DNA of 64,000 nt from Ktedonobacteraceae bacterium (lineage in GTDB: Bacteria > Chloroflexota > Ktedonobacteria > Ktedonobacterales > Ktedonobacteraceae): the NCBI GenBank assembly GCA_035653615.1, contig DASRBN010000019.1, positions 186,001 through 250,000 on the forward strand. The letters are read 5' to 3'. The notes under the pieces are model-generated. The model was not told where the DNA came from and ran no database searches. It saw nothing but the letters and a program-made list of their open reading frames with translations. Position 1 is the first letter of the stretch. Every line of letters starts with the position of its first letter. Both the position numbers and the translations under genes were made by a program. Below, piece after piece: positions 1,246 to 14,867 of the stretch.

Positions 1246-4200
1246 ATGGGTCAATTGAGCCTCGCATTGCTTGGAACTCCGGAGGTGCTCCACTCTGGAC
1301 AACCGGTGAAATTCCGCACGCGTAAAGAACTGGCCCTGCTCATTTACCTGGCCGTAGAGGGCGGCCTGCATTCGCGCGAGAAGATCACGACGCTGTTCTG
1401 GCCCGAGAGCGATGTCGTCCAGGGACGTACTACGCTGCGCCGGGCGCTGGCCAACCTGCGCAGCGTGCTCCATGATATGGAGGAGTCCGGGGCATCGCAC
1501 CTGCATATCGAACGAGAGGTTCTGGGTCTCGATCTCACGTCGAATGTTGAACTTGACGTTCATACGCTTGCGGCGGCACTTGCCCTCGATGCCGGTGGGC
1601 GTGGTGATGAACGGCTTCAGGCGCGCAATACGACGGGGGCCGGTACATCGGCGGTGGGCGCGGTCAATCGGCCCCTACGGGAGGTTGCCGGGCTGTATCG
1701 CGGCCCTTTTCTGGAGGGCTTTTCGTTGAACGATGCCCCCGACTTTGATAACTGGCTGCTCTTGCAACGCGAAACCTGCCATCGCCGCATGAGCCTGCTC
1801 CTGGAACGGCTATCCGCTTCGCAATTGAGAGATAGGGCCGTCGCGGATGCCATCGAGACCGCTGCTCGTTGGATTGCGCATGATCCTCTCAATGAAAGCG
1901 CTCGCATGCGCTTGATGGAGGCGCACCTGGCCGCGAGTCATCGCAATGCCGCGCTACAGGCCTACGAAGCCTACCGGACCTATCTTTCCTCAGAGCTGGA
2001 TATGCGGCCTTCGGCAGAAATGGAAGCCCTCGCGGCAAGCATACAGAGCGGAGTGGTGCGCGGGCGAGAAGTTGAAGTGGGCCACGCTACCGGAGGTACG
2101 ACGACCAGGTCGAGAGGACAGCGCGGAAAGGCGTTTTCGCCGCAACAAAGCTCCGCTCAGCAGTGGGAGGAATCAACCTCTGGAGTCCTGGTAGGTCCAC
2201 TGGTTGGGCGTGTCCAGGAATATGCTCGCCTGATCGAAGCATATCGCGATGTCGAGCGGGGTCAAATGCGGGCGGTGATTTTGAGAGGTGAGGCGGGTAT
2301 GGGGAAGACGCGCCTGGCGAGCGAGTTTCTGGGGCGGGCTGCGGAAATGGGCGCGGATGTGCTGCAAGGACGGGCATTCGAGGCGGGCGGTCGCCTGCCC
2401 TACCAACCGCTCGTGGATGCCCTGCGGCTGCGTATCGAACGTGAGAACGCTCCCGATGACCTGTTGAGCGATCCCTGGCTGGCCGAACTCGCCCGCCTGC
2501 TGCCCGAACTGCGCGAGCGTTATCCCGACCTGCCCGAACCAACGGGCGATGAAAATATCGCCCGCCTGCGCCTCTTTGAAGCAATCACGCGCCTGCTACA
2601 GGCGTTGGCCGGATACGCGCCGGTCGTGCTCTTCCTCGATGATATTCACTGGATCGATGTCGCCTCGCTTGATTTGCTGCACTATGCCGGGCGGCGCTGG
2701 ATGGAACAGGGAACGCCCATCCTTTTGCTGCTGGGCCAGCGCCTGGAATCCGCCGGCGCCGGGAGCGACCTGGCGCGTTCGCTGGAGAGCCTGCAGCGAG
2801 ATCTCCAGGTAACCGGCCTGCGACTGAAGCCGCTTACGCGGGATAGCACGCTTGAACTGGTACGCGCTATCTGCACTTCTCGCGTGGAGGCTGCAGGGGA
2901 ATGGCTTTTTGGCGAAACTCAGGGGCAGCCTTTCTACATCATGGAAACGCTGAAGGCATTGCTTGATCATGGAGTGCTCTCGACACGACGCCAGGTGGAT
3001 GGAAGCTGGCGCATTGACTACGAAGGCCGGGCGGACGACCTTTCGAACCTGCATCACTTTCTGCCCCCGGGCGTGCGCGAAGTGATTCGCTCCCGCCTCG
3101 ATCAGTTGACGCCACCAGCTTTCACGCTGCTGGCAGCCGGAGCGGTGCTTGGCCACCACTTCACCTTTGAACGTTTATGCCAGGTGGCAGATCTGGGTGA
3201 GAACGAGGGCCTGCCGGCATTGGATGAATTGCTGGCCAGGCGCCTGCTCTACGAGGCCGGTACTGAAAGCGGAGACTATCTTAACGCTCCAACCGGTACC
3301 TATTTTTTCACGCACGATAAGATCCGCGACGTTGTCTACACCGAAGCGGGTGAAGCGCGACGGCGTATCTTTCATCGCCGCGCCCTGGACATGCTACAGA
3401 GAGTTGCGGCCCCCGCCGCGGAACTCGTGCATCACGCTCTCGCTGCCCGACAGCCAGTTCAGGCCTTCTCTTTCAGCATCGCGGCAGGCGAAAACGCTAT
3501 GCAACTCTTCGCGGTGCGTGATGCTATTGCGCACTATGAGCGGGCGCGGCAAATCGCCGCACAATGGCAGGCGACACCGGGGGAATCCCATGCTCCTACA
3601 GCGGAAGCGATGCGCATGCTCTATGATCAGTTAGGGCGGGCCTACGAATTTATCAACGAGCTTGAGGCCGCGCGTACCATCTACCAGGAGATGCTGGCGT
3701 TCGCGCACAAGCTAGATGCCCCAGGCATGGAGTGTATAGCGCTCAATCACCTGGCGACGGTGATAATTCACGAGTCCTATGATCTCGACCAGGCCATGCT
3801 GCTATTGCAACAGGCTCTGGATGCCGGTGAGAAAAGCAATGATACTACCGCGCTGGCAGAGACCGAGTGGAGCCTGGCACAACTGTATTTCTATCGCTTC
3901 GATGTACGCGCGACAGTCGAACACGGCCAGCGCGCTTTAACGCTGGCGCGACAGCTTGACTGGGCAGAACTCGTGGCGCGCTGCCTCAATGTCACCGCTT
4001 ACGGGATAAAAGATAGTGGGCAGTGGGAAGAGTGTATGCCCTATGCTCAGGAAGCGCTGGATATCTACCGGCGGCTGGGCAACCGGGCCATGGAGGTTGA
4101 TTGCCGCTGCCTGCTGGCCAGTGTCAAGATTCATACTGGCCAGCCAGCGGCGGCGCTGGCCATTGCGGAAGAAGCGCGCGCAATCGCATTGGAGGCCGAA

Positions 4201-5007
4201 AATCTATGGGGGCAAGCCAACACGCTCTACCATATGGCAACGGCGTATATGGAGATGGGGAAATACGGTGAGGCTCTGGCGCTAGCTCAACAATGTATGG
4301 ATATAGCGCGCACGCATGATATCACAACCTGGACCGGGAACAGCCAGATGCTTGCGGGCACCGTTTACCGGGCGATATTGGCCTTAGACGAGGCGCGTGC
4401 GGCTCACCTGGCATCTATGGCAGTTCATGAAACGGTTCAATCCTATCCGCTCACGCGCGTGGCCTCGGCAGAAGTCTGCGCGGATTGCGCCCTGTCCGGA
4501 TTGTGGGAAGAGGCTGCGGCATTCGCACGGCTGGCAATCGAGCCTGATATTCCCCTCTTCTTACTTGCCACTCGCTTGCATCGCTGCTATGAAACGCAGG
4601 CTCTGCTGCGTGCCGGCGAGGTCGAGCTGGCAGCAAATTACACGCGGCTCGTTGGAGAAAGTATTGGCAGCAATCGGCGCCATCGCATTCCATACCTGCG
4701 CTCCCTGGCATCGCTCGCCCGCTATCAGCACCGCTTGGACGGCGCGATTGCCTACCTGCAGGAGGCGGCGCAGCTGGCGCGGGAGATCGGCCTGCCGGGG
4801 GAATTGTGGCCAATGCTGGCAGAACTGGGAGACCTCTACCTGGAGCAGGGCGATACGGAACGCGCCGCGCAGGTTTTTGCGCGGGCGGCTGATATCGTGT
4901 ACCAGCTTGCGGATAGTATTGGCGATGATAGGCGGAAAGAAGTCTTTTTAAGTTCGCCGCTTGTAAGACGGCTGCCGGACCAGTACCGGGCTGGCGGGAA
5001 TGGATAA
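1246..5007 (+). CDS. Large BTAD-domain transcriptional activator with AAA ATPase and TPR repeats
   Basis: A 1253-residue STAND-type regulator. Residues 1-95 form an OmpR-like winged-helix start (FRTRKELALLIYLAVEGG; FWPES; RRALANLRSVL). A bacterial transcriptional activator (BTAD) domain follows to about 275. An AAA/NACHT-like ATPase has Walker A GEAGMGKTRLASEF near residue 347 and Walker B VVLFLDDIHWID near 459. From about 760 to 1230 there are TPR-like helical repeats (LGRAYEFINELEAARTIYQEML). Such proteins sense a ligand or partner through the TPRs and switch transcription on in an ATP-dependent way. It stands alone and is convergent with the next gene after only 30 bases, so its target is unknown. 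Residues about 132-146 are encoded by an interspersed palindromic repeat (see findings). Confidence 0.88.
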   Translation: MGQLSLALLGTPEVLHSGQPVKFRTRKELALLIYLAVEGGLHSREKITTLFWPESDVVQGRTTLRRALANLRSVLHDMEESGASHLHIEREVLGLDLTSNVELDVHTLAAALALDAGGRGDERLQARNTTGAGTSAVGAVNRPLREVAGLYRGPFLEGFSLNDAPDFDNWLLLQRETCHRRMSLLLERLSASQLRDRAVADAIETAARWIAHDPLNESARMRLMEAHLAASHRNAALQAYEAYRTYLSSELDMRPSAEMEALAASIQSGVVRGREVEVGHATGGTTTRSRGQRGKAFSPQQSSAQQWEESTSGVLVGPLVGRVQEYARLIEAYRDVERGQMRAVILRGEAGMGKTRLASEFLGRAAEMGADVLQGRAFEAGGRLPYQPLVDALRLRIERENAPDDLLSDPWLAELARLLPELRERYPDLPEPTGDENIARLRLFEAITRLLQALAGYAPVVLFLDDIHWIDVASLDLLHYAGRRWMEQGTPILLLLGQRLESAGAGSDLARSLESLQRDLQVTGLRLKPLTRDSTLELVRAICTSRVEAAGEWLFGETQGQPFYIMETLKALLDHGVLSTRRQVDGSWRIDYEGRADDLSNLHHFLPPGVREVIRSRLDQLTPPAFTLLAAGAVLGHHFTFERLCQVADLGENEGLPALDELLARRLLYEAGTESGDYLNAPTGTYFFTHDKIRDVVYTEAGEARRRIFHRRALDMLQRVAAPAAELVHHALAARQPVQAFSFSIAAGENAMQLFAVRDAIAHYERARQIAAQWQATPGESHAPTAEAMRMLYDQLGRAYEFINELEAARTIYQEMLAFAHKLDAPGMECIALNHLATVIIHESYDLDQAMLLLQQALDAGEKSNDTTALAETEWSLAQLYFYRFDVRATVEHGQRALTLARQLDWAELVARCLNVTAYGIKDSGQWEECMPYAQEALDIYRRLGNRAMEVDCRCLLASVKIHTGQPAAALAIAEEARAIALEAENLWGQANTLYHMATAYMEMGKYGEALALAQQCMDIARTHDITTWTGNSQMLAGTVYRAILALDEARAAHLASMAVHETVQSYPLTRVASAEVCADCALSGLWEEAAAFARLAIEPDIPLFLLATRLHRCYETQALLRAGEVELAANYTRLVGESIGSNRRHRIPYLRSLASLARYQHRLDGAIAYLQEAAQLAREIGLPGELWPMLAELGDLYLEQGDTERAAQVFARAADIVYQLADSIGDDRRKEVFLSSPLVRRLPDQYRAGGNG
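1640..1684 (+). repeat. GGCCGAT/ATCGGCC-family repeat core inside a coding sequence
   Basis: The segment containing ATCGGCGGTGGGCGCG and AATCGGCCCCTAC is almost identical to the intergenic repeat at 16304-16335 and, on the other strand, to 59335-59378. Here it is in frame within the BTAD region and encodes SAVGAVNRPLR. Its insertion adds no stop codon. Confidence 0.7.
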
Positions 5008-5037: not shown

Positions 5038-8000
5038 TTATGCCGGGCAAATCAAATAGAATGGGCACGTTGGGCAGGCAAACGCGTCGGGCTTCGGCGG
5101 GAACTCGTGGCGTTCCAGGCCCTGGATGGCCTGTTCCAGTTCATTATAAAGGCTCTGCTCCTTTTTCTCTGTTAGCTTGACCTCGAACGTTTCGCCGGTA
5201 CTCATATTGTGGTAATGCAATTCGACGTTCTGGCCTGGATGGTGCTGGCGCGAGGCGTGCGCGTAGAGCAGCTCCCTGGTGCCCGGCGCCGGTTTTGTCT
5301 TGCCCTTGCCAAAACGCCGGCGGATGAACCTGACCGGTTTCTCGTCCTGCGCGGCCACCTCGACGCCATCTACCGGCACCTCTATCGTTTTGCCCGCGAT
5401 AGTCACGCTATAGCTTTGACGCAGTTGCTCTCGTGTGTCTCCATCGCTACCCTCAAGCAATTTGCGGCGCAGCAGTTCGGTCACCTCGCGTCCGTGCTGC
5501 TCGTAGATCGAGGCGAAAGGAAAGGTATGTCCATCGTGATCGTGCCAATGCTGTGCGAACAGTTCCTCGGCCTCCTGCCTGCTCAAGAGTTGTCCCTGCT
5601 GATCTCCTGCCTGCCTGTCCTCGTCCAGTCGCTTTTGCAGCGCATCCAGCGTTTCTCGCGTCGCCTGCCAGAAAAGCTGGTATGCTCCCCCCTCAAGGTG
5701 GAAGTGGTAAATGCTGCTATAGGCATAGCGGCGCGGGCAGGTAGCATAATTTTCAATCGCGGTAGCACTGAGCGTTTCCGGCTGCATGGCCGCGATAAAA
5801 CTTTCGCCGGGCTGCGAGGAGATAGCCAGTAGGGGCGGGGGTTGTGGTGGAGGTGGGGTGAGGGAGCTTGCCCCGCCCTGTGGCGTGGCATGGACAAGCG
5901 TGGGCAGCTCATCCTGCCAGATCAGGCGTGTGATACGTTCCTCTGGAAGGCCCCTGACGAGCGCGTCGATATACGGCGAGCGCTTGTAGGTCATTTTGCC
6001 GTAGCGTTCGCTGTAGCTCAGAATGAGATGGTCGCGGGCGCGCGTCGCTCCCACGTAGAAGAGGCAGGCCTCTCCGCTTTCGTGCGCGGCGTCGCCTTCG
6101 CTTCCGGGTGGAAGCATGCCACGCGGTGGTGGTGCGGTCTGCGCTCGTTTCTGCATGGGGAAACGGCGCGAGACCAGGAAAGGCAGGTACACGACCGGGA
6201 ATTCCAGGCCCTTGCTGGCATGCACGGTCATCACGCGAATAACGTCAGGGAGTGGTTCATTCCCGTTTTCAGCGCCTTCGCGCCGGTTTCCGCCATCCTG
6301 GCGCAGCGCAAGCAGCACGCTCAGGTAATCGAGGAAGCCTTTTGCCTGTTCCTTTAAAGGTGGCGGCTGGGGGATATCTTCGCCGCGCGCAAGGGCCTCC
6401 TGCGCGCGCAGTGTTTGCTGCTGCTGGTCATAGTAGCGAGCAAGTTGCAGCAGACCGTCATAATCCGCCAGCAGCGCGCCGCTCTGGGGATGGTTCGGGG
6501 TGGAGAGCAGGTCGCGCACCAGCGAGGTTTCGAGCAAGAGATAGTCGGCCAGCAGCGCCCAGACGCTGGTGTTATACCGCAGCGCCTTTAAAATCGCGGA
6601 CAGGCGTGCCAGCGATGAAGAGCCTTGCGCGCTCATGCTAGCCGGGGCCTCGCCGCGCAAAAGCAGGTCGATCAAGTCGCATTTTTGCGCGCGGGCCGCC
6701 AGCAGCAGGGACTCGATATCGTCCTGGCTCAAGGGGTGGTCGGGCTGGCGGGCCGCGCGCAAAATGCCCATACCGCTGCTATCGGCCAGTAACATCACAA
6801 TGGAAAGCAGGTTTTTGATGTGTTCCTGCTCCAGCATGCCGCCGCGCTCGCTCACAGGCAGTCCCGCCGTTACCAGCGCCTGCGTGACTTTGCGCGCCTG
6901 CGCCCTTGTGCGGCACAGCACGACGATATCGCGGAAGCTGTAGCCCCCGGCATGCTTGCGCCGGATATCGCCGACCAATCCGTTCAGTTCGTCGGCCTCG
7001 TTCGCGGCCACCGCCAGCGTGACATAAGTAGCGGGCAGATCTGAACGCGCCGCCTGCACGCTGCCCAACTCGCCAGCATCCGTTCCTGCTTCCAGCAGTT
7101 CGCGCCGGAAGGTCTGTGCCAGGCGAACGATATCCGGGCGCGAGCGATAATTGCGGCTGAGCGGCAGGATGACAGCATCCGGGTAATCGTCCTGAAAGTT
7201 GGCGATATTGGCCGGTGAAGCGCCGCGGAAGCCATAGATGGCCTGGTTCGCGTCTCCGACCACCCAGACATTTCCCTGTTCCCCCGCCAGCAGGCGCAAT
7301 AGTACGCCGCTGGCGCGATTGATATCCTGGAATTCGTCAACGAGGATATGCTGGTATTTTTGCCGCAACTCACTGCATACCCCGGGATGCTCCTGTAAAA
7401 GCTGTACTGCCAGCATGATCAGGCCGCCGAAATCGGTATCGCCTTGCCGCTCCAGGCGCTGCTGGTAGAGCGCGTAGATTTCAGCGATCTCGAGCGCCTT
7501 CTCAGCCGCCTGTGTCTCTTCCTCATTGCGCGCCTGCGCCAGCATATCCGCGGCCAGTTTTTTGTATTGTGCGGGCGTGACCAGTTCGTCTTTGGCGCGT
7601 GAGATGGCGCTCAGAATGGCAGGGAAATACATCGTTGGCGCGGCCAGGTTCTGGTAATGGCGCAGCGGCAGGTCCGCGGCCAACCGGCGTAGCAGAAAAT
7701 ACCCCTCAACATCATCGACAAAGGTGAAATCCTGCCGCAGTCCCACGAGATGACCATAGGTACGTAGCAGTTCGGCGCAAAATGCGTGAAATGTACTGAC
7801 GGTTGGTGGGATGCTGTCGACGTCCAGGATCGCTTGCAGGCGATCCTGCATCTCCCCTGCCGCCTTGCGCGAGAAGGTCAGGGCCAGGATGTGCCCTGGT
7901 TGGACGCCCATTTCGTGGATCAGGTAATCGGCGCGCCCGATCAGCGTGCTGGTTTTGCCGCTGCCCGGCCCGGCCACGATCAACGCTGGCGTTGGGGCCT

Positions 8001-8727
8001 CGATAGCGGCCCGCTGGAACTCGTCGTACTGTTTTTTGGGTGTATCAGGACGACCAGAAAGGTTTGTCGCAGGGCGTTCTGGTTGCTCCCGAAGCAACTC
8101 TGCCAGGCGATTAAGCATGGCTGCCTGTGAAACGTCGAAGATGGCGGGAAGCTGGTTGGCAGGGATATGCGATGACAGGTAGAGCGCGCGCACGCGTTCA
8201 AGCGGCATTAATAGTTCGGCGGCGAAGATGTTAGCGGCCAGCTCGCGCCGGCTGCGCGGGTCATATGCCACGCCTGCGCCGAGCAATTCTTCGGCCTGCT
8301 GCTGGAAGGTTGGCGCGATCACTTCCTCGCGTACATCATGTGATTGGCAGGTCTCTTCCTCCAGGTTTCCTGAATCAACGGGGTCGGCAGTAGTTGGGAG
8401 CGCAGCTAACCGGCGATAAGTTGGGTGGTCGTCCGTGTGGTGCAACACGGCGTGGCCCAGTTCGTGCGCCAGGGTGAAGCGCCGGAACGTTTCGGGCAGG
8501 CCGCGGCAGAGCCAGATCATTTTCTCACTCGCCTCGAAGAAGCCATACGTCCCCTGCGGATAGTCATCAGGATGAAATGTCGCGACCTCCAGTTCGAGCC
8601 AGGAGGCCAGTTCATCCACCGGCGTTCTATCGTTTTGCCAATCAGGGTGCGCCGCCCTGAAGTCTGAGAGCAGTTCGCGAGCCGCTTCTATCGCCTCCGC
8701 TGCCTCGGCCTGCATGCGTTCGTCCAT
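5038..8727 (-). CDS. ImmA/IrrE metallopeptidase - UvrD-like helicase - AddB-like C-terminal fusion
   Basis: A 1229-residue protein from ATG 8727 (a TTG start ten codons upstream is possible; GGGGAG lies just before the ATG). The N-terminus is a zinc metallopeptidase of ImmA/IrrE type: AHELGHAVLHH near residue 86 and ELAANIFAAELLMP near 165-178. The middle is a superfamily 1 helicase with Walker A GPGSGKTSTLIGR (about 251), ALTFSRKAAGEMQ, DEFQDIN (about 461), GDANQAIYGFRGA, NYRSRPDI, VHASKGLEFPVVYL and FYVGATRARD (about 889). The last 250 residues resemble the AddB/Cas4 nuclease: one Cys in ATCPRRYAY and a C-terminal CPTCPFYLIC (CxxCxxxxxC), the pattern of a 4Fe-4S staple. The expected DYK catalytic motif is absent; that region reads PVRFIRRRFGK, so nuclease activity is doubtful. 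A role in DNA repair, or in sensing damage or phage, is inferred from the parts. Confidence 0.85.
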   Translation of the reverse strand: MDERMQAEAAEAIEAARELLSDFRAAHPDWQNDRTPVDELASWLELEVATFHPDDYPQGTYGFFEASEKMIWLCRGLPETFRRFTLAHELGHAVLHHTDDHPTYRRLAALPTTADPVDSGNLEEETCQSHDVREEVIAPTFQQQAEELLGAGVAYDPRSRRELAANIFAAELLMPLERVRALYLSSHIPANQLPAIFDVSQAAMLNRLAELLREQPERPATNLSGRPDTPKKQYDEFQRAAIEAPTPALIVAGPGSGKTSTLIGRADYLIHEMGVQPGHILALTFSRKAAGEMQDRLQAILDVDSIPPTVSTFHAFCAELLRTYGHLVGLRQDFTFVDDVEGYFLLRRLAADLPLRHYQNLAAPTMYFPAILSAISRAKDELVTPAQYKKLAADMLAQARNEEETQAAEKALEIAEIYALYQQRLERQGDTDFGGLIMLAVQLLQEHPGVCSELRQKYQHILVDEFQDINRASGVLLRLLAGEQGNVWVVGDANQAIYGFRGASPANIANFQDDYPDAVILPLSRNYRSRPDIVRLAQTFRRELLEAGTDAGELGSVQAARSDLPATYVTLAVAANEADELNGLVGDIRRKHAGGYSFRDIVVLCRTRAQARKVTQALVTAGLPVSERGGMLEQEHIKNLLSIVMLLADSSGMGILRAARQPDHPLSQDDIESLLLAARAQKCDLIDLLLRGEAPASMSAQGSSSLARLSAILKALRYNTSVWALLADYLLLETSLVRDLLSTPNHPQSGALLADYDGLLQLARYYDQQQQTLRAQEALARGEDIPQPPPLKEQAKGFLDYLSVLLALRQDGGNRREGAENGNEPLPDVIRVMTVHASKGLEFPVVYLPFLVSRRFPMQKRAQTAPPPRGMLPPGSEGDAAHESGEACLFYVGATRARDHLILSYSERYGKMTYKRSPYIDALVRGLPEERITRLIWQDELPTLVHATPQGGASSLTPPPPQPPPLLAISSQPGESFIAAMQPETLSATAIENYATCPRRYAYSSIYHFHLEGGAYQLFWQATRETLDALQKRLDEDRQAGDQQGQLLSRQEAEELFAQHWHDHDGHTFPFASIYEQHGREVTELLRRKLLEGSDGDTREQLRQSYSVTIAGKTIEVPVDGVEVAAQDEKPVRFIRRRFGKGKTKPAPGTRELLYAHASRQHHPGQNVELHYHNMSTGETFEVKLTEKKEQSLYNELEQAIQGLERHEFPPKPDAFACPTCPFYLICPA
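5826..5880 (-). repeat. G-rich interspersed repeat inside the helicase gene
   Basis: CCAGTAGGGGCGGGGGTTGT followed by GGGAGCTTGCC is shared with 25381-25428 and, less exactly, with 33074-33115, both outside genes. On the minus strand this copy is in frame and encodes the proline-rich linker GGASSLTPPPPQPPPLLAI between the helicase and the C-terminal domain. Confidence 0.6.
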
Positions 8728-8806
8728 AATCTCCCCACGAAATAAGTTTCTCCACAATGCATTTTACCATGTTATGCTGGTGGTGAATATACTGGGATAT
8801 CTTTTT

Positions 8807-8900
8807 CCAGGGCTATTGAAAAGTCGAGTCAAGTGAGGTCAACTGTACAAGGCGCTCCGGCAAAATCAAGCTCGTTCTCGCGACTTTTCAATAGCCCTGG
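8807..8900. mobile_element. 92-94 bp element with 20-bp terminal inverted repeats (copy 1, MITE-like)
   Basis: The ends CCAGGGCTATTGAAAAGTCG and CGACTTTTCAATAGCCCTGG are perfect inverted repeats of 20 bases around a 54-base interior. A second copy of equal length lies at 13193-13284 with only four differences over the shared 92 bases. It contains no coding capacity and lies between the divergent ImmA-UvrD and LuxR genes. It could be a non-autonomous element or a structured regulatory hairpin. Confidence 0.7.
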
Positions 8901-9843: not shown

Positions 9844-10713
9844 ATGAAAGGAAAAGCAGTCCCTGTCGTGCTCTGTTGCCTGCTCACCCTTGCTGTTATT
9901 ATGACGGTGCTTCCTCGATCAGCAGGGATGACGGCCAGAGCGAAGTCCAGAGTGCCAGACAGCAATCCGGTGACCTATTATGGCGGACCGGTCGCGCCTG
10001 GCACGATGAATGTCTACGCGATCTTCTGGTTTCCTGGAGATCAGGGTGCGATGAGTACCTATATGTCAGCTATCAAGCAGTACTATCGTGATGTGGGTGG
10101 CAATCGCCTGTACAACATGCTCACTGAGTATGCCGGGAACAATGGGACGCCTACCTCGGCAGCGTTGGCAGGCGTTTGGGAAGATACTGGTACCAGCTAC
10201 AACACGCAACTGACGCTTCAGGATTTCATCAATGAAGTCAAGCTGGCCATCGTCAACAACAATTGGCCTACCGGGGGCTATAACAACTACTTCCCGATCT
10301 ACCTGCTTCCAGGGGCCAATACGGTCGCAGGGATAGTGACGGGTCATGGATCCTTTGGGCCGCAAGATAATCCAACCATCTTTGGATATATCCTCTATTG
10401 TGAACAAGGAGGGATGTGCGGCGTTCCCACCCATCCCAATGATCCTAATAGCTATGCGACCGATGGGGCCATCAACGCTTCGGCACACGAGCAGTTTGAA
10501 GCAGCCACTGACGGAGGAGGGGATTTTGATCTGGGCTGGAGGGGAGAGGGGGAAATTGGTGATCTATGTGCCGGGAAATTTGGTCCCACGCCTTACCCCT
10601 ATGATGGGGGTCAGGCCAACCAGGAGTGGGTCAATTCACACGGTATCGATGACTACTATATCATCCAGGAAATGGAGAGCAATTCGCCTGCAGGCTGTAT
10701 CCTGGGAGTTTGA
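9844..10713 (+). CDS. Secreted exordium/zincin-like protein
   Basis: A 289-residue protein from ATG 9844 with AAGGAG nine bases upstream. Residues 1-37 form a signal peptide (basic start, then VVLCCLLTLAVIMTVLP). The mature part contains SAHEQFEAATD followed further on by GEIGDLC, the same two landmarks (SHE..EA.T..P and GxEIGDxC) found in plant EXORDIUM/phosphate-induced proteins and their bacterial relatives. HEQFE resembles a zinc-binding HExxE motif, but catalysis has not been shown for this family as far as I know. It precedes a secreted Vgb-like propeller by 34 bases and is likely in one operon with it. Location: outside the cell. Confidence 0.6.
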   Translation: MKGKAVPVVLCCLLTLAVIMTVLPRSAGMTARAKSRVPDSNPVTYYGGPVAPGTMNVYAIFWFPGDQGAMSTYMSAIKQYYRDVGGNRLYNMLTEYAGNNGTPTSAALAGVWEDTGTSYNTQLTLQDFINEVKLAIVNNNWPTGGYNNYFPIYLLPGANTVAGIVTGHGSFGPQDNPTIFGYILYCEQGGMCGVPTHPNDPNSYATDGAINASAHEQFEAATDGGGDFDLGWRGEGEIGDLCAGKFGPTPYPYDGGQANQEWVNSHGIDDYYIIQEMESNSPAGCILGV

Positions 10714-10747
10714 TTCGCTTCAAGGCAGAGATAGAAGGAGTCTCACT

Positions 10748-11875
10748 ATGAAATGTGCGATACGGCACAGACGGATGATCTTCGGATTGTTGCTCCTGGC
10801 ACCGTTGGTGCTGGGACTGAGCCTCTCACGACTGGTCATAAGCACTCAGACTGCTACAGCATTACGGCTCAGCCCAGGCATCTCTACGAGCAAGGCCTCA
10901 CCGCTGACGGCTGGCACCGTCACTGAGTATGCAATCCCCACTAAAGAGAGCCAGCCGGTTGGAATCACCACCGGCCCTGATGGCAACCTGTGGTTTACCG
11001 AAGGCCACGGAAACAAGATTGGAAAGGTTACCCCAGGCGGCGTCTTCACGGAATACACATTGCCCACCACGATGAGTGAACCGGAAGGCATCACCAGCGG
11101 ACCCGATGGCAACCTGTGGTTTACCGAGTTCAATTCGATTGATGGCAACCGCATTGGGAAGATTAGCACGACTGGCCAGATCACCGAGTATGCACTTCCT
11201 CATGATGACAGTGAACCCGAGAGCATCACCAGCGGCCCTGATAGCAATCTCTGGTTTACCGAGTTTGACGGCAACCGCATCGGCAAGATCACGACGACCG
11301 GCCAGCTCACGGAATACATGTTGCCCAATGCCAATAGCGAGCCAGAAGGTATCACCAGCGGCCCGTGTGGCGATGGCATGCAGGCGCAGTGTCTCTGGTT
11401 CACCGAGTATGCCATTATCTCAAACAATCGAGCGAATATTGGGCGTATCACCACCGATGGTACAATTACCGAATATCAGCTGCCCTCAGATCATGCCAGG
11501 GCAAATGATATTACCCTGGGTTCTGGTGGAGTCCTCTACTTCACCGAACAAATCAACGTGGGAGGCGATGTGCCGCCGTTTAGCACACAGGCCAAAATTG
11601 GTCAGATCACGACCAGTGGACAGGTGCAATTGAGTGAGTTAGCCTCGCTTGCCAACGGGGGCTGTCTTCCTAATAGCATTGTCAACGGGTCGGACGGTAA
11701 TCTGTGGTTTACCGAGTATTATCAGATCGGTACGATTACGCCAACAGGGACGGTTACCGAATACACCATCCCAAAGAGCGATAGCTTGCCTGATCACATC
11801 ACGGCTGGCCCGGACGGTAACCTGTGGTTCGCCGAATACTCAGGAAACAAGATTGGCAAAATTACGACGCAGTGA
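10748..11875 (+). CDS. Secreted seven-bladed Vgb-like beta-propeller
   Basis: A 375-residue protein from ATG 10748, AGAAGGAG seven bases upstream. An N-terminal hydrophobic segment (MIFGLLLLAPLVLGLSLS) is a signal peptide or anchor. The rest contains seven copies of a 41-53 residue repeat of the form ITEYxLP..S.P.GITxGPDGNLWFTE..GNxIGKITTTG, characteristic of virginiamycin B lyase (Vgb) and NHL-like propellers. True Vgb linearises streptogramin B in the cytosol; an exported protein is more likely to bind or cut something outside the cell, so antibiotic resistance should not be assumed. Blades 4 and 5 carry insertions. The next gene, convergent, encodes a paralogue. Confidence 0.8.
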   Translation: MKCAIRHRRMIFGLLLLAPLVLGLSLSRLVISTQTATALRLSPGISTSKASPLTAGTVTEYAIPTKESQPVGITTGPDGNLWFTEGHGNKIGKVTPGGVFTEYTLPTTMSEPEGITSGPDGNLWFTEFNSIDGNRIGKISTTGQITEYALPHDDSEPESITSGPDSNLWFTEFDGNRIGKITTTGQLTEYMLPNANSEPEGITSGPCGDGMQAQCLWFTEYAIISNNRANIGRITTDGTITEYQLPSDHARANDITLGSGGVLYFTEQINVGGDVPPFSTQAKIGQITTSGQVQLSELASLANGGCLPNSIVNGSDGNLWFTEYYQIGTITPTGTVTEYTIPKSDSLPDHITAGPDGNLWFAEYSGNKIGKITTQ

Positions 11876-11919
11876 TGATTTAGTTGTTCAAGGAAATAAT
11901 CTCTGAACAGAGAACGAAA

Positions 11920-11944
11920 GAGGAGATAGACGATCTATCTCCTC
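11920..11944. terminator. Hairpin between convergent propeller genes
   Basis: GAGGAGATAG and CTATCTCCTC form a perfect 10-bp stem around ACGAT. It lies 45 bases after the plus-strand gene stop and about 110 bases after the minus-strand stop, where a bidirectional terminator would be expected; there is no clear T run. Confidence 0.45.
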
Positions 11945-12051
11945 GCTCGTTTCCTCGGGTGGAATATCAGTATGCTCAAATCGTGAATCTCTTCCTTGAA
12001 GAAAGGTTCCTAAATTCTGCTTTTTCCTTTGTTCAGAGCGGATCACGCTCC

Positions 12052-13071
12052 TTAACTCCAGGTAATGGTGCCAATCGCATCATCTCCCGGTGCCACAAAC
12101 CAGAGATTCGTATCGGGTCCCACCGTAATCCCATCTGGTTGGGCTGTACCAGAGAAGGAATATTGCCTGAATTTCCCCTTGATAGTTACTCGTCCAATCG
12201 CACCCACCTGTTCGGTAAACCAGAGCCTGCCATCTGGGCCGGTGGTGATCCCCTGTGGATCGCTTGGACCAGGAATCGGATAGGTGGTAAATTGGCCCTG
12301 GAGCGTCATCTTACCAATGCAGCCATAGAAGCCCGTCGTCGTAAACCACAGGTTGCCATCGGGTCCGCTGGTGATGCCATAGGGATCGGCTACTCCCCCT
12401 TTGGTACACTTGCGCGAGGTGTAATGGATGGGATATTCGCTGATCTGCCCGCTCAGGGTGATCCTGCCCAGCCGACGCACACCATCGTATTCGGTGAACC
12501 AGAGATTGCCGTCGGGACCTACGGTAATGCCAAATGGTCCCCCACCATGTGGCAGCGAGTACTCGGTGATCTGCCCGCTGGTGGTGATTTTCCCGATCTT
12601 GTCGCCGGCGTACTCGGCAAACCACAGGTTGCCGTCAGGACCGGTCGTGATGTTAGCGGGAAAGGCATTGGGGGTGGGGATGAGATACTCGGTGATTTTG
12701 CCATTAGTGGTAATTTTGCCAATCTTATTGCCCCACCACTCGGTGAACCACAGATTGCCATCGGGACCGGCCGTGATGCCCACCGGGCGGCTATCTGGGG
12801 TGGGGATAGAGTACTCGGTATAGCTGCCATGGGTGGTCATTTTCCCAACCCGGTTGCCGGGATATTCCAGGAACCACAGGTTGCCATCGGGTCCACTGGC
12901 AATACTGCCCCACGGATTGTGGCCCGGGGGCAGCGGGTACTCGGTGATCTGCCCGGCAGTGTGAGGTAGAGAGCGCTGCTGGGCCTGGGCGAAAGGCACT
13001 CCAGTGAGGAGCAGCAAGGCGAACAGCAAGAGTACCAGGCTCAGGTGACGTGTGAGTTGGAAAGTGTTCAT
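12052..13071 (-). CDS. Secreted seven-bladed Vgb-like beta-propeller (paralogue)
   Basis: A 339-residue protein from ATG 13071 with AAAGGAG seven bases upstream; the longer reading seven codons further is less likely. Residues 1-30 form a signal peptide (LVLLLFALLLLTGVPFAQA). Seven repeats of about 42 residues follow, each with GITxGPDGNLWFTE and IGKITT. Blade 5 is longer and carries KCTKGG and YGC, two cysteines that could form a disulfide. It is convergent with the paralogue at 10748-11875. The fold is well supported; substrate and enzymatic activity are unknown. Confidence 0.8.
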   Translation of the reverse strand: MNTFQLTRHLSLVLLLFALLLLTGVPFAQAQQRSLPHTAGQITEYPLPPGHNPWGSIASGPDGNLWFLEYPGNRVGKMTTHGSYTEYSIPTPDSRPVGITAGPDGNLWFTEWWGNKIGKITTNGKITEYLIPTPNAFPANITTGPDGNLWFAEYAGDKIGKITTSGQITEYSLPHGGGPFGITVGPDGNLWFTEYDGVRRLGRITLSGQISEYPIHYTSRKCTKGGVADPYGITSGPDGNLWFTTTGFYGCIGKMTLQGQFTTYPIPGPSDPQGITTGPDGRLWFTEQVGAIGRVTIKGKFRQYSFSGTAQPDGITVGPDTNLWFVAPGDDAIGTITWS

Positions 13072-13192
13072 GGCCCATCTCCTTTGTTGCATGAAACACA
13101 GTCTGCCGGTATGTTCAACAATCTAACAATGCTGTACTGCTCTCAAGTGTAGCATGTGCAACCGGTGGGCACAAGCCTCCTCTGTTCGTTTC

Positions 13193-13363: not shown

Positions 13364-14044
13364 ATGGAATCAACGGAGATACTGGATCGAGTCAAAACCG
13401 GCGGTGATATGCCCCATGGTTGGATCGTTTTCCCGCTGTCGCGCAGGAAAGTCGCGATAGGCATCCTCGGCTGGATTTTCGGTGTTATCGTCGGGCTGGG
13501 TCTTTTCGCGGTCATCGCGTGGCTCACCATCCCGCATAATTACCAGCAGGGCGCAGCTGCTATCATTTTCACTACAATACTGCTCGGAATTATGCTGTAT
13601 GTTGGTCTGGGCAGCATCTGGGCGCTTATCATGGATGCGCGCCGCTTGAGCCAGGCCGATAAGCATGTGATCGTGATTACGCCCGAAGATTTTGTCAAGC
13701 AGGACGGCTCCAGGATTATTCATGTGCCGCTGATGTATGTGCGACACGTCACGGCACGAGGCGGTCGCCCACCACAGCCGGAGCGCACGACCACGAGCAA
13801 CCCGATTCGCGAGATGCCCGGCTTTGGCGAGCAACTGGGCAGCATGTTTTTTGGTCGCCGCAATGTTGCCACAGGAAGCGAGGGCGCCCGCCGCAAGCGC
13901 ATGCGCACTCCCACCACGCTGGCATTCGTTGACGATCGCAATCAAAGCGAAGTGATTGTCGTCACGGATGCGGCTTACGGCGATCCTTACATCATTGCCG
14001 CTCTTTTGAAGCAATACGCGGCCAGCGTGCAGCAATTAGCCTGA
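13364..14044 (+). CDS. Membrane protein with two N-terminal helices and a C-terminal PH-like domain
   Basis: 226 residues; GGAG lies upstream of the ATG. Two transmembrane helices are clear (VAIGILGWIFGVIVGLGLFA at about 30-55; AAAIIFTTILLGIMLYVGLG at about 64-85). The cytosolic remainder contains ITPEDFVKQDGSRIIHVPLM and later strands ending in a helix (DPYIIAALLKQYAASVQQL), which suggests a bacterial PH/YcxB-like domain, with a basic disordered insert (about 140-185) in the middle. Function unknown. Forty bases separate it from coaX, so they are probably cotranscribed. Confidence 0.65.
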   Translation: MESTEILDRVKTGGDMPHGWIVFPLSRRKVAIGILGWIFGVIVGLGLFAVIAWLTIPHNYQQGAAAIIFTTILLGIMLYVGLGSIWALIMDARRLSQADKHVIVITPEDFVKQDGSRIIHVPLMYVRHVTARGGRPPQPERTTTSNPIREMPGFGEQLGSMFFGRRNVATGSEGARRKRMRTPTTLAFVDDRNQSEVIVVTDAAYGDPYIIAALLKQYAASVQQLA

Positions 14045-14084
14045 GTTTCAATCCCTAAACGGGCCAGGAAAGGGTCTGACTCCT

Positions 14085-14867
14085 ATGTTACTTGCCATCG
14101 ATATCAGCAATACCAATATCAAGTTTGGCCTGTATAATAGCACGGCGCTGAAAAATCGCTGGGTCGTTTCCACGGCTCGCCAGCGCACGACCGACGAATA
14201 TGCCATGGTTTTGAATGACCTGGCGCGTTATGCCGGGTACTCTTTTGCCGATATCGATGACATCATTTTGTCCAGCGTCGTTCCCCCTTTGACGCCGGTC
14301 TTCCAGGAACTGGCCCTAATCTATTGCCAGAAGGAGGCAATCGTCCTCGATCATAGCGTAGACCTGGGCATGAAGCTGCTGGTCGATAATCCGTGGGAGA
14401 TTGGCTCAGATCGTATAGTCACCTCGCTGGCCGCGCACCACCTCTATGGTGGGCCGGCCATTATCATCGCGTTCAGCACGGCCACAACCTTTGATGTGAT
14501 CTCGCGCGAGGGAGATTTCCTGGGCGGATCGATTGCGCCCGGCCTGGTCATTTCAGCGGAGGCGTTGAGCAGCGCGGCCTCGCGCCTGTTTCGCGTCGAT
14601 TTGACGCCGCCGCGTGCCGCCCTGGGCAAGAATACCATTGAGAACATGCAGTCCGGCATTATTTACGGGCACGTGGGACTCGTGCAGGGCCTGATCAGCC
14701 GCCTGCGCAAAGAGATACCGGGCGTGACGGACGAAAACGAGGTCAAGGTCATTGCGCACGGTGGGCTGGCGCAGTTGATGTCCCCCATCATCCCCGAAAT
14801 CCAGTACGTGAATCAATACTTACCTCTCGAAGGGCTGCGGCTGGCTTATATGAAGCTCCGGGGCTAA
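14085..14867 (+). CDS. coaX: Type III pantothenate kinase
   Basis: 260 residues, the usual length. It phosphorylates pantothenate with ATP, the first step of coenzyme A synthesis, in the cytosol, and needs a monovalent cation. Visible motifs of this ASKHA-fold enzyme are the phosphate loop MLLAIDISNTNIKFGLY (DISNTN in place of the more common DVGNTN), GSDRIVTSLAAHHLYGGPAI, the second phosphate loop FSTATTFDVIS (usually GTATT), and GGSIAPGLVISAEAL. The substitutions Ser for Gly in both loops are conservative but worth noting. A spaced AGGAAAGGG precedes the ATG. Cotranscribed with the upstream membrane protein. Confidence 0.9.
   Translation: MLLAIDISNTNIKFGLYNSTALKNRWVVSTARQRTTDEYAMVLNDLARYAGYSFADIDDIILSSVVPPLTPVFQELALIYCQKEAIVLDHSVDLGMKLLVDNPWEIGSDRIVTSLAAHHLYGGPAIIIAFSTATTFDVISREGDFLGGSIAPGLVISAEALSSAASRLFRVDLTPPRAALGKNTIENMQSGIIYGHVGLVQGLISRLRKEIPGVTDENEVKVIAHGGLAQLMSPIIPEIQYVNQYLPLEGLRLAYMKLRG

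Follow-up and report, generated by a model that had tools for sequence, protein, structure and literature searches.

The window analysed here is a stretch of 64,000 nucleotides from a Ktedonobacteraceae bacterium of the phylum Chloroflexota (assembly GCA_035653615.1, contig DASRBN010000019.1, positions 186,001 to 250,000). On its reverse strand one gene encodes a protein of 1229 residues that joins an M78 (ImmA/IrrE-type) protease, a UvrD-type helicase and an iron-sulfur (Fe-S) PD-(D/E)XK nuclease-like domain (Table 1). The open reading frame (ORF) fills exactly the interval given there, from an ATG start to a stop codon within the bounds, and is preceded by the ribosome-binding site GGGGAG (8736-8731). 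Four Pfam families match above their cut-offs (Peptidase_M78 with 54, UvrD-helicase with 231, UvrD_C with 100 and PDDEXK_1 with 32 bits), which bears out the single-chain architecture put forward in the original prediction. An assembly error, named there as the way in which such a fusion might arise, is ruled out because the same end-to-end architecture occurs in other genera and families at 30-58% identity, mostly as full-length homologues from many genomes and independent assemblies. In the window's own family the gene was found as a single copy in 26 of 28 sampled relatives, the two without it being incomplete metagenome-assembled genomes (MAGs), and these fusions form one clade. An AlphaFold model of residues 30-1229 reached a predicted local distance difference test score (pLDDT) of 85 and a predicted template-modelling score of 0.85. 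Its first fold matches were UvrD/PcrA, and AdnB was matched over about 780 columns.

Table 1. Features of the fusion gene and its surroundings (window coordinates)
Feature	Position	Strand	Basis
M78 protease - UvrD helicase - PD-(D/E)XK-like Fe-S fusion, 1229 aa	5038..8727	-	ORF, Pfam, homologues
M78 (ImmA/IrrE) protease domain with C-terminal helix-turn-helix-like helices, residues 36-215	8083..8622	-	PF06114, folds, IrrE 3dte profile match
HELGH, residues 88-92	8452..8466	-	H88, E89 and H92 invariant in 60 sequences
Glu162, predicted third zinc ligand, within RELAANIFAAELL	8242..8244	-	invariant in 60 sequences
UvrD/PcrA-type superfamily 1A (SF1A) helicase, residues 236-907	6007..8022	-	PF00580, PF13361, TIGR01073, folds
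PD-(D/E)XK-like domain, residues 985-1228	5044..5775	-	PF12705; AdnA alignment
Nuclease active site, degenerate: Asp1120 retained, Arg1136 in place of the catalytic Asp and Arg1138 in place of the Lys	5314..5370	-	AdnA Asp934-x-Lys alignment; column counts
Cys997, first predicted Fe-S ligand	5737..5739	-	invariant in 60 sequences
Cys1218, Cys1221, Cys1227 (CPTCPFYLIC), predicted Fe-S ligands	5047..5076	-	invariant in 60 sequences
GGTAAAAT, -10-like, housekeeping-type promoter of the fusion gene	8761..8768	-	alignment of upstream regions
Former conserved neighbours, membrane protein (13364-14044) and coaX (14085-14867)	13364..14867	+	divergent from fusion; adjoin fusion in relatives

Conservation was read from 60 aligned homologues belonging to Chloroflexota, Pseudomonadota and Abditibacteriota. 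The HEXXH motif and downstream glutamate that define M78 proteases (H88, E89, H92 and E162) do not vary in any of them. The isolated protease domain was modelled with a pLDDT of 85, and its nearest solved folds in Foldseek are CapP (7t5t, the top match), IrrE (3dti) and PprI bound to single-stranded DNA (ssDNA; 8sln), all with a probability of 1.00. The E-values of these matches are modest, about 1e-3 to 5e-3, yet the top ranks are taken by M78 proteins, and a separate profile search gives the same picture (2e-10 for IrrE, 6e-10 for CapP). Structure prediction supports the proposed M78 identity. The HELGH motif had also been thought to lie unusually far from its partner motif, and indeed 70 residues separate H92 from E162 compared with about 25-30 in IrrE. 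The additional loop differs in length between homologues and is modelled with low confidence. Cys127 (window 8347-8349) lies in this loop; it is invariant in 34 mostly Ktedonobacterales sequences but not in the other lineages of the 60-homologue alignment, and a cysteine switch or redox control is conceivable.

The helicase part is predicted to adopt UvrD/PcrA/AdnB folds and keeps the Walker-A lysine K258, D464-E465 of motif II, R528 and R896 in all homologues. With 319 bits against the pcrA-like model TIGR01073 it stays below the UvrD/PcrA equivalog cut-off of 911 bits. The C-terminal domain resembles those of AdnAB and AddAB in its four predicted Fe-S cysteines (60/60) and departs from them in the catalytic D..DxK residues. 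Asp934 of AdnA, the residue mutated in the solved D934A structures, aligns with Arg1136, and the AdnA lysine two residues later with Arg1138. An acid occupies the first of these positions in none of the 60 homologues and lysine the second in only three. As the second acid is lost throughout and the lysine in 57 of 60, the nuclease is probably catalytically dead, and we rejected an active one; of the nuclease-like Fe-S domain originally proposed, the cysteines have stood and the nuclease activity has not. The retention of a putative Fe-S staple beside a dead site suggests a domain that binds DNA rather than cuts it.

In 13 loci from Chloroflexota outside the Ktedonobacterales, a gene for an XRE-type helix-turn-helix (HTH) protein lies directly upstream of the fusion without exception. 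A second, diverged fusion paralogue occurs in two families related to that of the window, and an XRE gene is found directly upstream of it in four of five sampled loci as well as upstream of one truncated copy. On plasmids, all 15 loci carry an HTH gene ahead of the fusion, and in 12 a sigma-factor gene was recognised by profile. At the Chloroflexota loci the XRE-type partner has 200-240 residues (HTH_31 E-value 8e-9 in the clearest case) and is usually preceded by a gene for a sigma factor like those of the extracytoplasmic function (ECF) type, with Sigma70_r4_2 E-values of 1e-8 to 1e-10 for those tested. The sigma, XRE and fusion genes overlap or lie a few bases apart in the examples examined. 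Many fusion copies bear only the annotation 'ATP-dependent helicase' or 'UvrD-helicase domain-containing protein', which makes it easy to overlook the protease and the logic of the three genes.

Linkage is complemented by co-occurrence. We searched the same 400 Chloroflexota genomes with a fusion profile and an HTH profile and tallied the results: 55 genomes contain both, none the fusion alone, six the HTH protein alone and 339 neither, counts that are not phylogenetically independent. The six HTH-only genomes are five incomplete MAGs and one weak match. Outside the Ktedonobacterales both profiles pick out the same 13 genomes from six families, several of which also include genomes with neither, and losses and gains of the two proteins coincide. 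An HTH partner encoded with the protease or co-occurring with it, as in switches of the IrrE-DdrO or CapHP type, is therefore present. The window's genome has a first sigma-XRE pair on contig C25 (L145, 8833-10409) and a second, more distant pair on contig C28 (L163). Cytochrome b/Rieske-type and glycogen-synthase-like genes lie beside the first pair (L145:1120-7635), a setting that is conserved in the family.

A promoter-like element, TTTCCGYTTT-N11-14-AAGAAK, precedes the second sigma-XRE operon in three Ktedonobacterales genomes including that of the window. A scan of 29 genomes returned 29 matches compared with four for a reversed-pattern control. Among the genes next downstream, five genomes had recA, three the sigma gene, three rpsF-ssb and two a gene for a DinB_2-like protein (recA, rpsF, ssb and DinB_2 were named by eye from their sequences). 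Upstream of recA all 18 family genomes had the element with at most two mismatches after the consensus had been loosened and the region widened in response to an earlier result, the stricter consensus and shorter region giving 14 of 18 within two mismatches. In the window's genome it reads TTTCCGCTTTTTCGACCCTGTTAGAGAAT, and the controls gave no match within the gene and one on the reverse strand. The element is not palindromic and its spacing is nearly fixed, as expected of a sigma-factor promoter and not of an operator. The partner sigma factor may recognise it, and its position before recA, rpsF-ssb and the sigma gene points to a regulon with DNA-damage genes. The fusion gene itself has a housekeeping-type -10-like sequence, as would be expected if a sensor were constantly present; sequences like GGTATAAT stand upstream in most orthologues. 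A perfect 20-bp inverted repeat, CCAGGGCTATTGAAAAGTCG, also lies just upstream of the gene (8881-8900 and 8807-8826, arms 54 bp apart) and is possibly a small transposon relic or an attenuator.

Full-length relatives of the fusion are found on about 86 plasmid records, mostly from Pseudomonadota. In 12 of the 15 plasmid loci the cassette adjoins a ubiquitin-like operon. It is of the multiubiquitin-ThiF (Bub) type at six (L186, L194, L196, L197, L198, L200) and BilABCD-like at five (L188, L191, L192, L193, L199), with PADLOC Bil matches of 1e-44 to 1e-155 at L188, L192, L193 and L199; at L189 a divergent ThiF is found. The intergenic region that separates the fusion from the next genes, mostly Bil/Bub, has the motif TWCCG-N14-20-CGATY in 10 of 12 plasmids, compared with a background rate of 0.011 per 100 bp. 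In three plasmids this motif also precedes the sigma gene; it was defined by eye, and an automatic comparison of the two promoter regions was clear only for L188. Elsewhere Bub operons come with the damage-responsive regulators CapW, CapHP or CapKS (PMC13373217), and the plasmid cassette stands in a comparable position. Genes for an SbcCD/Mre11-like exonuclease and ATPase also flank the cassettes of L186, L188, L191, L193 and L199, and WYL and WGR genes those of L188 and L191.

We propose, with a probability of roughly two in three, that the fusion senses DNA damage and triggers a three-part switch, of which the XRE partner and the sigma factor are the other members. This reading builds on the domain architecture, the invariant protease and helicase residues, the loss of nuclease residues, the operon linkage, the co-occurrence and the shared promoter-like element, all of which were observed. 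The UvrD motor and the dead, Fe-S-stapled PD-(D/E)XK domain would take hold of ssDNA or DNA ends, perhaps while translocating at the expense of ATP, and thereby activate the fused protease. The activated protease would cleave the XRE-type partner, which may repress by binding DNA, act as an anti-sigma factor or do both, and so free the ECF-like sigma factor. The latter would then transcribe its own operon together with recA and rpsF-ssb in Ktedonobacterales, and the adjacent Bil or Bub operon on plasmids. For activation by DNA and for cleavage of the partner we draw on analogy: PprI is activated by ssDNA and cuts DdrO (PMC10904395), and CapP is likewise activated by ssDNA and cuts its HTH partner CapH (PMC13373217). 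The original prediction had coupled the sensing of damaged or foreign DNA to repressor proteolysis in a self-contained switch. Its damage-sensing part gains from the XRE co-occurrence, from the sigma gene in the operon of most other lineages and from the element before recA and ssb, with cleavage a presumption by analogy; the role against foreign DNA fits the plasmid relatives beside Bil/Bub operons and not the chromosomal gene of the window. That the switch is self-contained is not supported, as presumed substrate and sigma factor are separate genes that are unlinked to the fusion in the window's genome.

Several observations weigh against this interpretation. In the window's family the fusion is unlinked to the sigma-XRE genes and has a housekeeping-like promoter of its own, and the alignment of upstream regions from this family revealed no promoter common to the fusion and sigma genes. 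For one second-paralogue copy no neighbouring XRE gene was detected; its genome has the pair elsewhere. The promoter-like element was defined post hoc from few sigma-gene upstream regions; not every family shows it before recA, where it is absent or weak in six genomes, and no recA-like element was seen by eye in Chloroflexia-like loci. Moreover, it is the second sigma-XRE pair that carries the recA-like element, whereas the first is the closer relative of the operon-linked pair. Finally, LexA is present in the window's genome, so that a different damage regulator could be the one that uses the element. If so, recA and the TTCCG..AGAAT element would be governed by LexA or another regulator and the fusion, XRE and sigma genes would control something else, a reading to which its absence before recA in several related genomes also lends some weight. 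LexA boxes are usually palindromic, and this element is not; three genomes, the window's among them, have it ahead of the sigma-XRE operon as well, and the plasmid operons that come after the fusion have a TTCCG-type element in front. We consider this explanation unlikely, if worth keeping in mind.

A somewhat less probable alternative is the repair of DNA-protein crosslinks, in which the helicase would reach a protein stuck on DNA and the metalloprotease degrade it, like SPRTN in animals, with the XRE and sigma proteins regulating expression only. In its favour are the aptness of a motor-borne zinc protease for such work, a chromosomal, usually single-copy gene beside housekeeping genes and the lack of a dedicated substrate gene adjoining the fusion in the window's family. 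However, the characterised M78 members IrrE/PprI and CapP cut specific HTH partners, no sampled genome has the fusion without the HTH family, and where the genes are linked the partner is encoded directly upstream. That the protein is a subunit of an AdnAB/AddAB-like recombination helicase-nuclease, its M78 domain merely structural or regulatory, we regard as improbable. The helicase-nuclease part does fold as AdnB/AddA and aligns with AdnA including the cysteine motif, but the second nuclease acid is lost and the invariance of the protease residues argues against a purely structural domain. Nor does a second UvrD-PD-(D/E)XK protein appear among the UvrD matches in the window's genome, a weak match in a frame of 1,121 residues being a Dna2-like superfamily 1B (SF1B) enzyme and not a second subunit. 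Slightly more improbable still is an anti-phage or plasmid-stability module with the protease-helicase itself as the defence effector, for which the plasmid neighbourhood of multiubiquitin/ThiF and BilABCD operons and a GajB-like helicase score in PADLOC could be cited. This score is explained by the shared UvrD fold, and membership in Gabija was rejected because no gajA OLD nuclease gene adjoins the window copy. Against an effector role, the Chloroflexota gene is chromosomal and occurs in almost all genomes of the family, which forms one clade, no Bil/Bub neighbours were seen at the Chloroflexota loci inspected, and the plasmid fusion stands where CapW, CapHP or CapKS stand as regulators (PMC13373217).

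The proposed sensor switch has its closest counterpart in IrrE/PprI-DdrO of Deinococcus, where an M78 protease, its fold among the nearest solved ones, cleaves upon activation by ssDNA the XRE repressor of recA and further repair genes (PMC10904395). The fusion differs by its additional SF1A helicase and probably dead Fe-S PD-(D/E)XK domain and by a partner accompanied by a sigma factor, and no GAF-like domain was recognised in it. It shares with CapH-CapP, controllers of cyclic-oligonucleotide-based anti-phage signalling systems (CBASS) and Bub operons, the protease fold, the HTH partner gene, the position by Bub operons and the DNA-damage logic. However, CapP is a chain of 291 residues without a helicase, CapH is a short HTH protein and no sigma factor is involved. 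An M78 protease and an XRE-type repressor are also combined in ImmA-ImmR, in which a small protease without helicase or sigma factor serves the regulation of mobile elements. With AdnAB and AddAB the fusion has in common a UvrD-type motor followed by a PD-(D/E)XK domain with Fe-S cysteines, but it has lost the nuclease residues and gained an N-terminal protease, and no second subunit was found. The Bil and Bub operons adjoining the plasmid cassette are its probable targets, and the cassette is not among the regulators named for Bub operons, which are CapW, CapHP and CapKS (PMC13373217). In the literature searched we found no description of an M78-UvrD fusion or a sigma-XRE-helicase operon, and the three-component system appears to be undescribed there; a prior description elsewhere is possible.

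The fusion is chromosomal in Ktedonobacterales and in other Chloroflexota families, six of which have one copy. Its N-terminal part was found in no phage record searched, and when named genomes were scanned with the protease alignment, most of the matches listed were unfused M78 proteins. Orthologues in the window's family neighbour a membrane-protein gene, coaX, plsC and cmk (coaX, plsC, cmk and rluB were named by eye from their sequences). The conserved divergent membrane protein matches no recognised family, and the housekeeping neighbours coaX, plsC, cmk and rluB gave no lead on the function of the fusion. In the window, inserted genes part the fusion from the membrane-protein gene and coaX, among them two opposed genes for streptogramin-lyase-like repeat proteins (ITEYxxPxxxSxPxGITxGPDGNLWFTE; 10346-13092). 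On the other side, a BTAD/AAA_16/TPR regulator of 1,253 residues (SARP-like; 1246-5007) converges with the fusion at a distance of 30 bp. Elsewhere in the same genome (L182:2915-6208), a protein of 1,097 residues reads as a Dna2/Upf1-type SF1B helicase joined to a Cas4-like PD-(D/E)XK domain.

If the proposed sensor switch is correct, a DNA motor on the sensor's own chain and a sigma factor as output would unite damage processing and signalling in one step, in contrast to IrrE-DdrO and CapHP, which use small proteases that bind ssDNA directly. The wider picture is evenly poised: a LexA-independent damage response in which a motor-driven sensor protease destroys the XRE protein and frees the sigma factor, acting on recA and ssb from the Ktedonobacterales chromosome and serving on plasmids as a cassette for ubiquitin-like anti-phage operons. 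It would provide a regulator for a share of the Bil and Bub anti-phage operons and may explain a possible control of recA in Ktedonobacterales.

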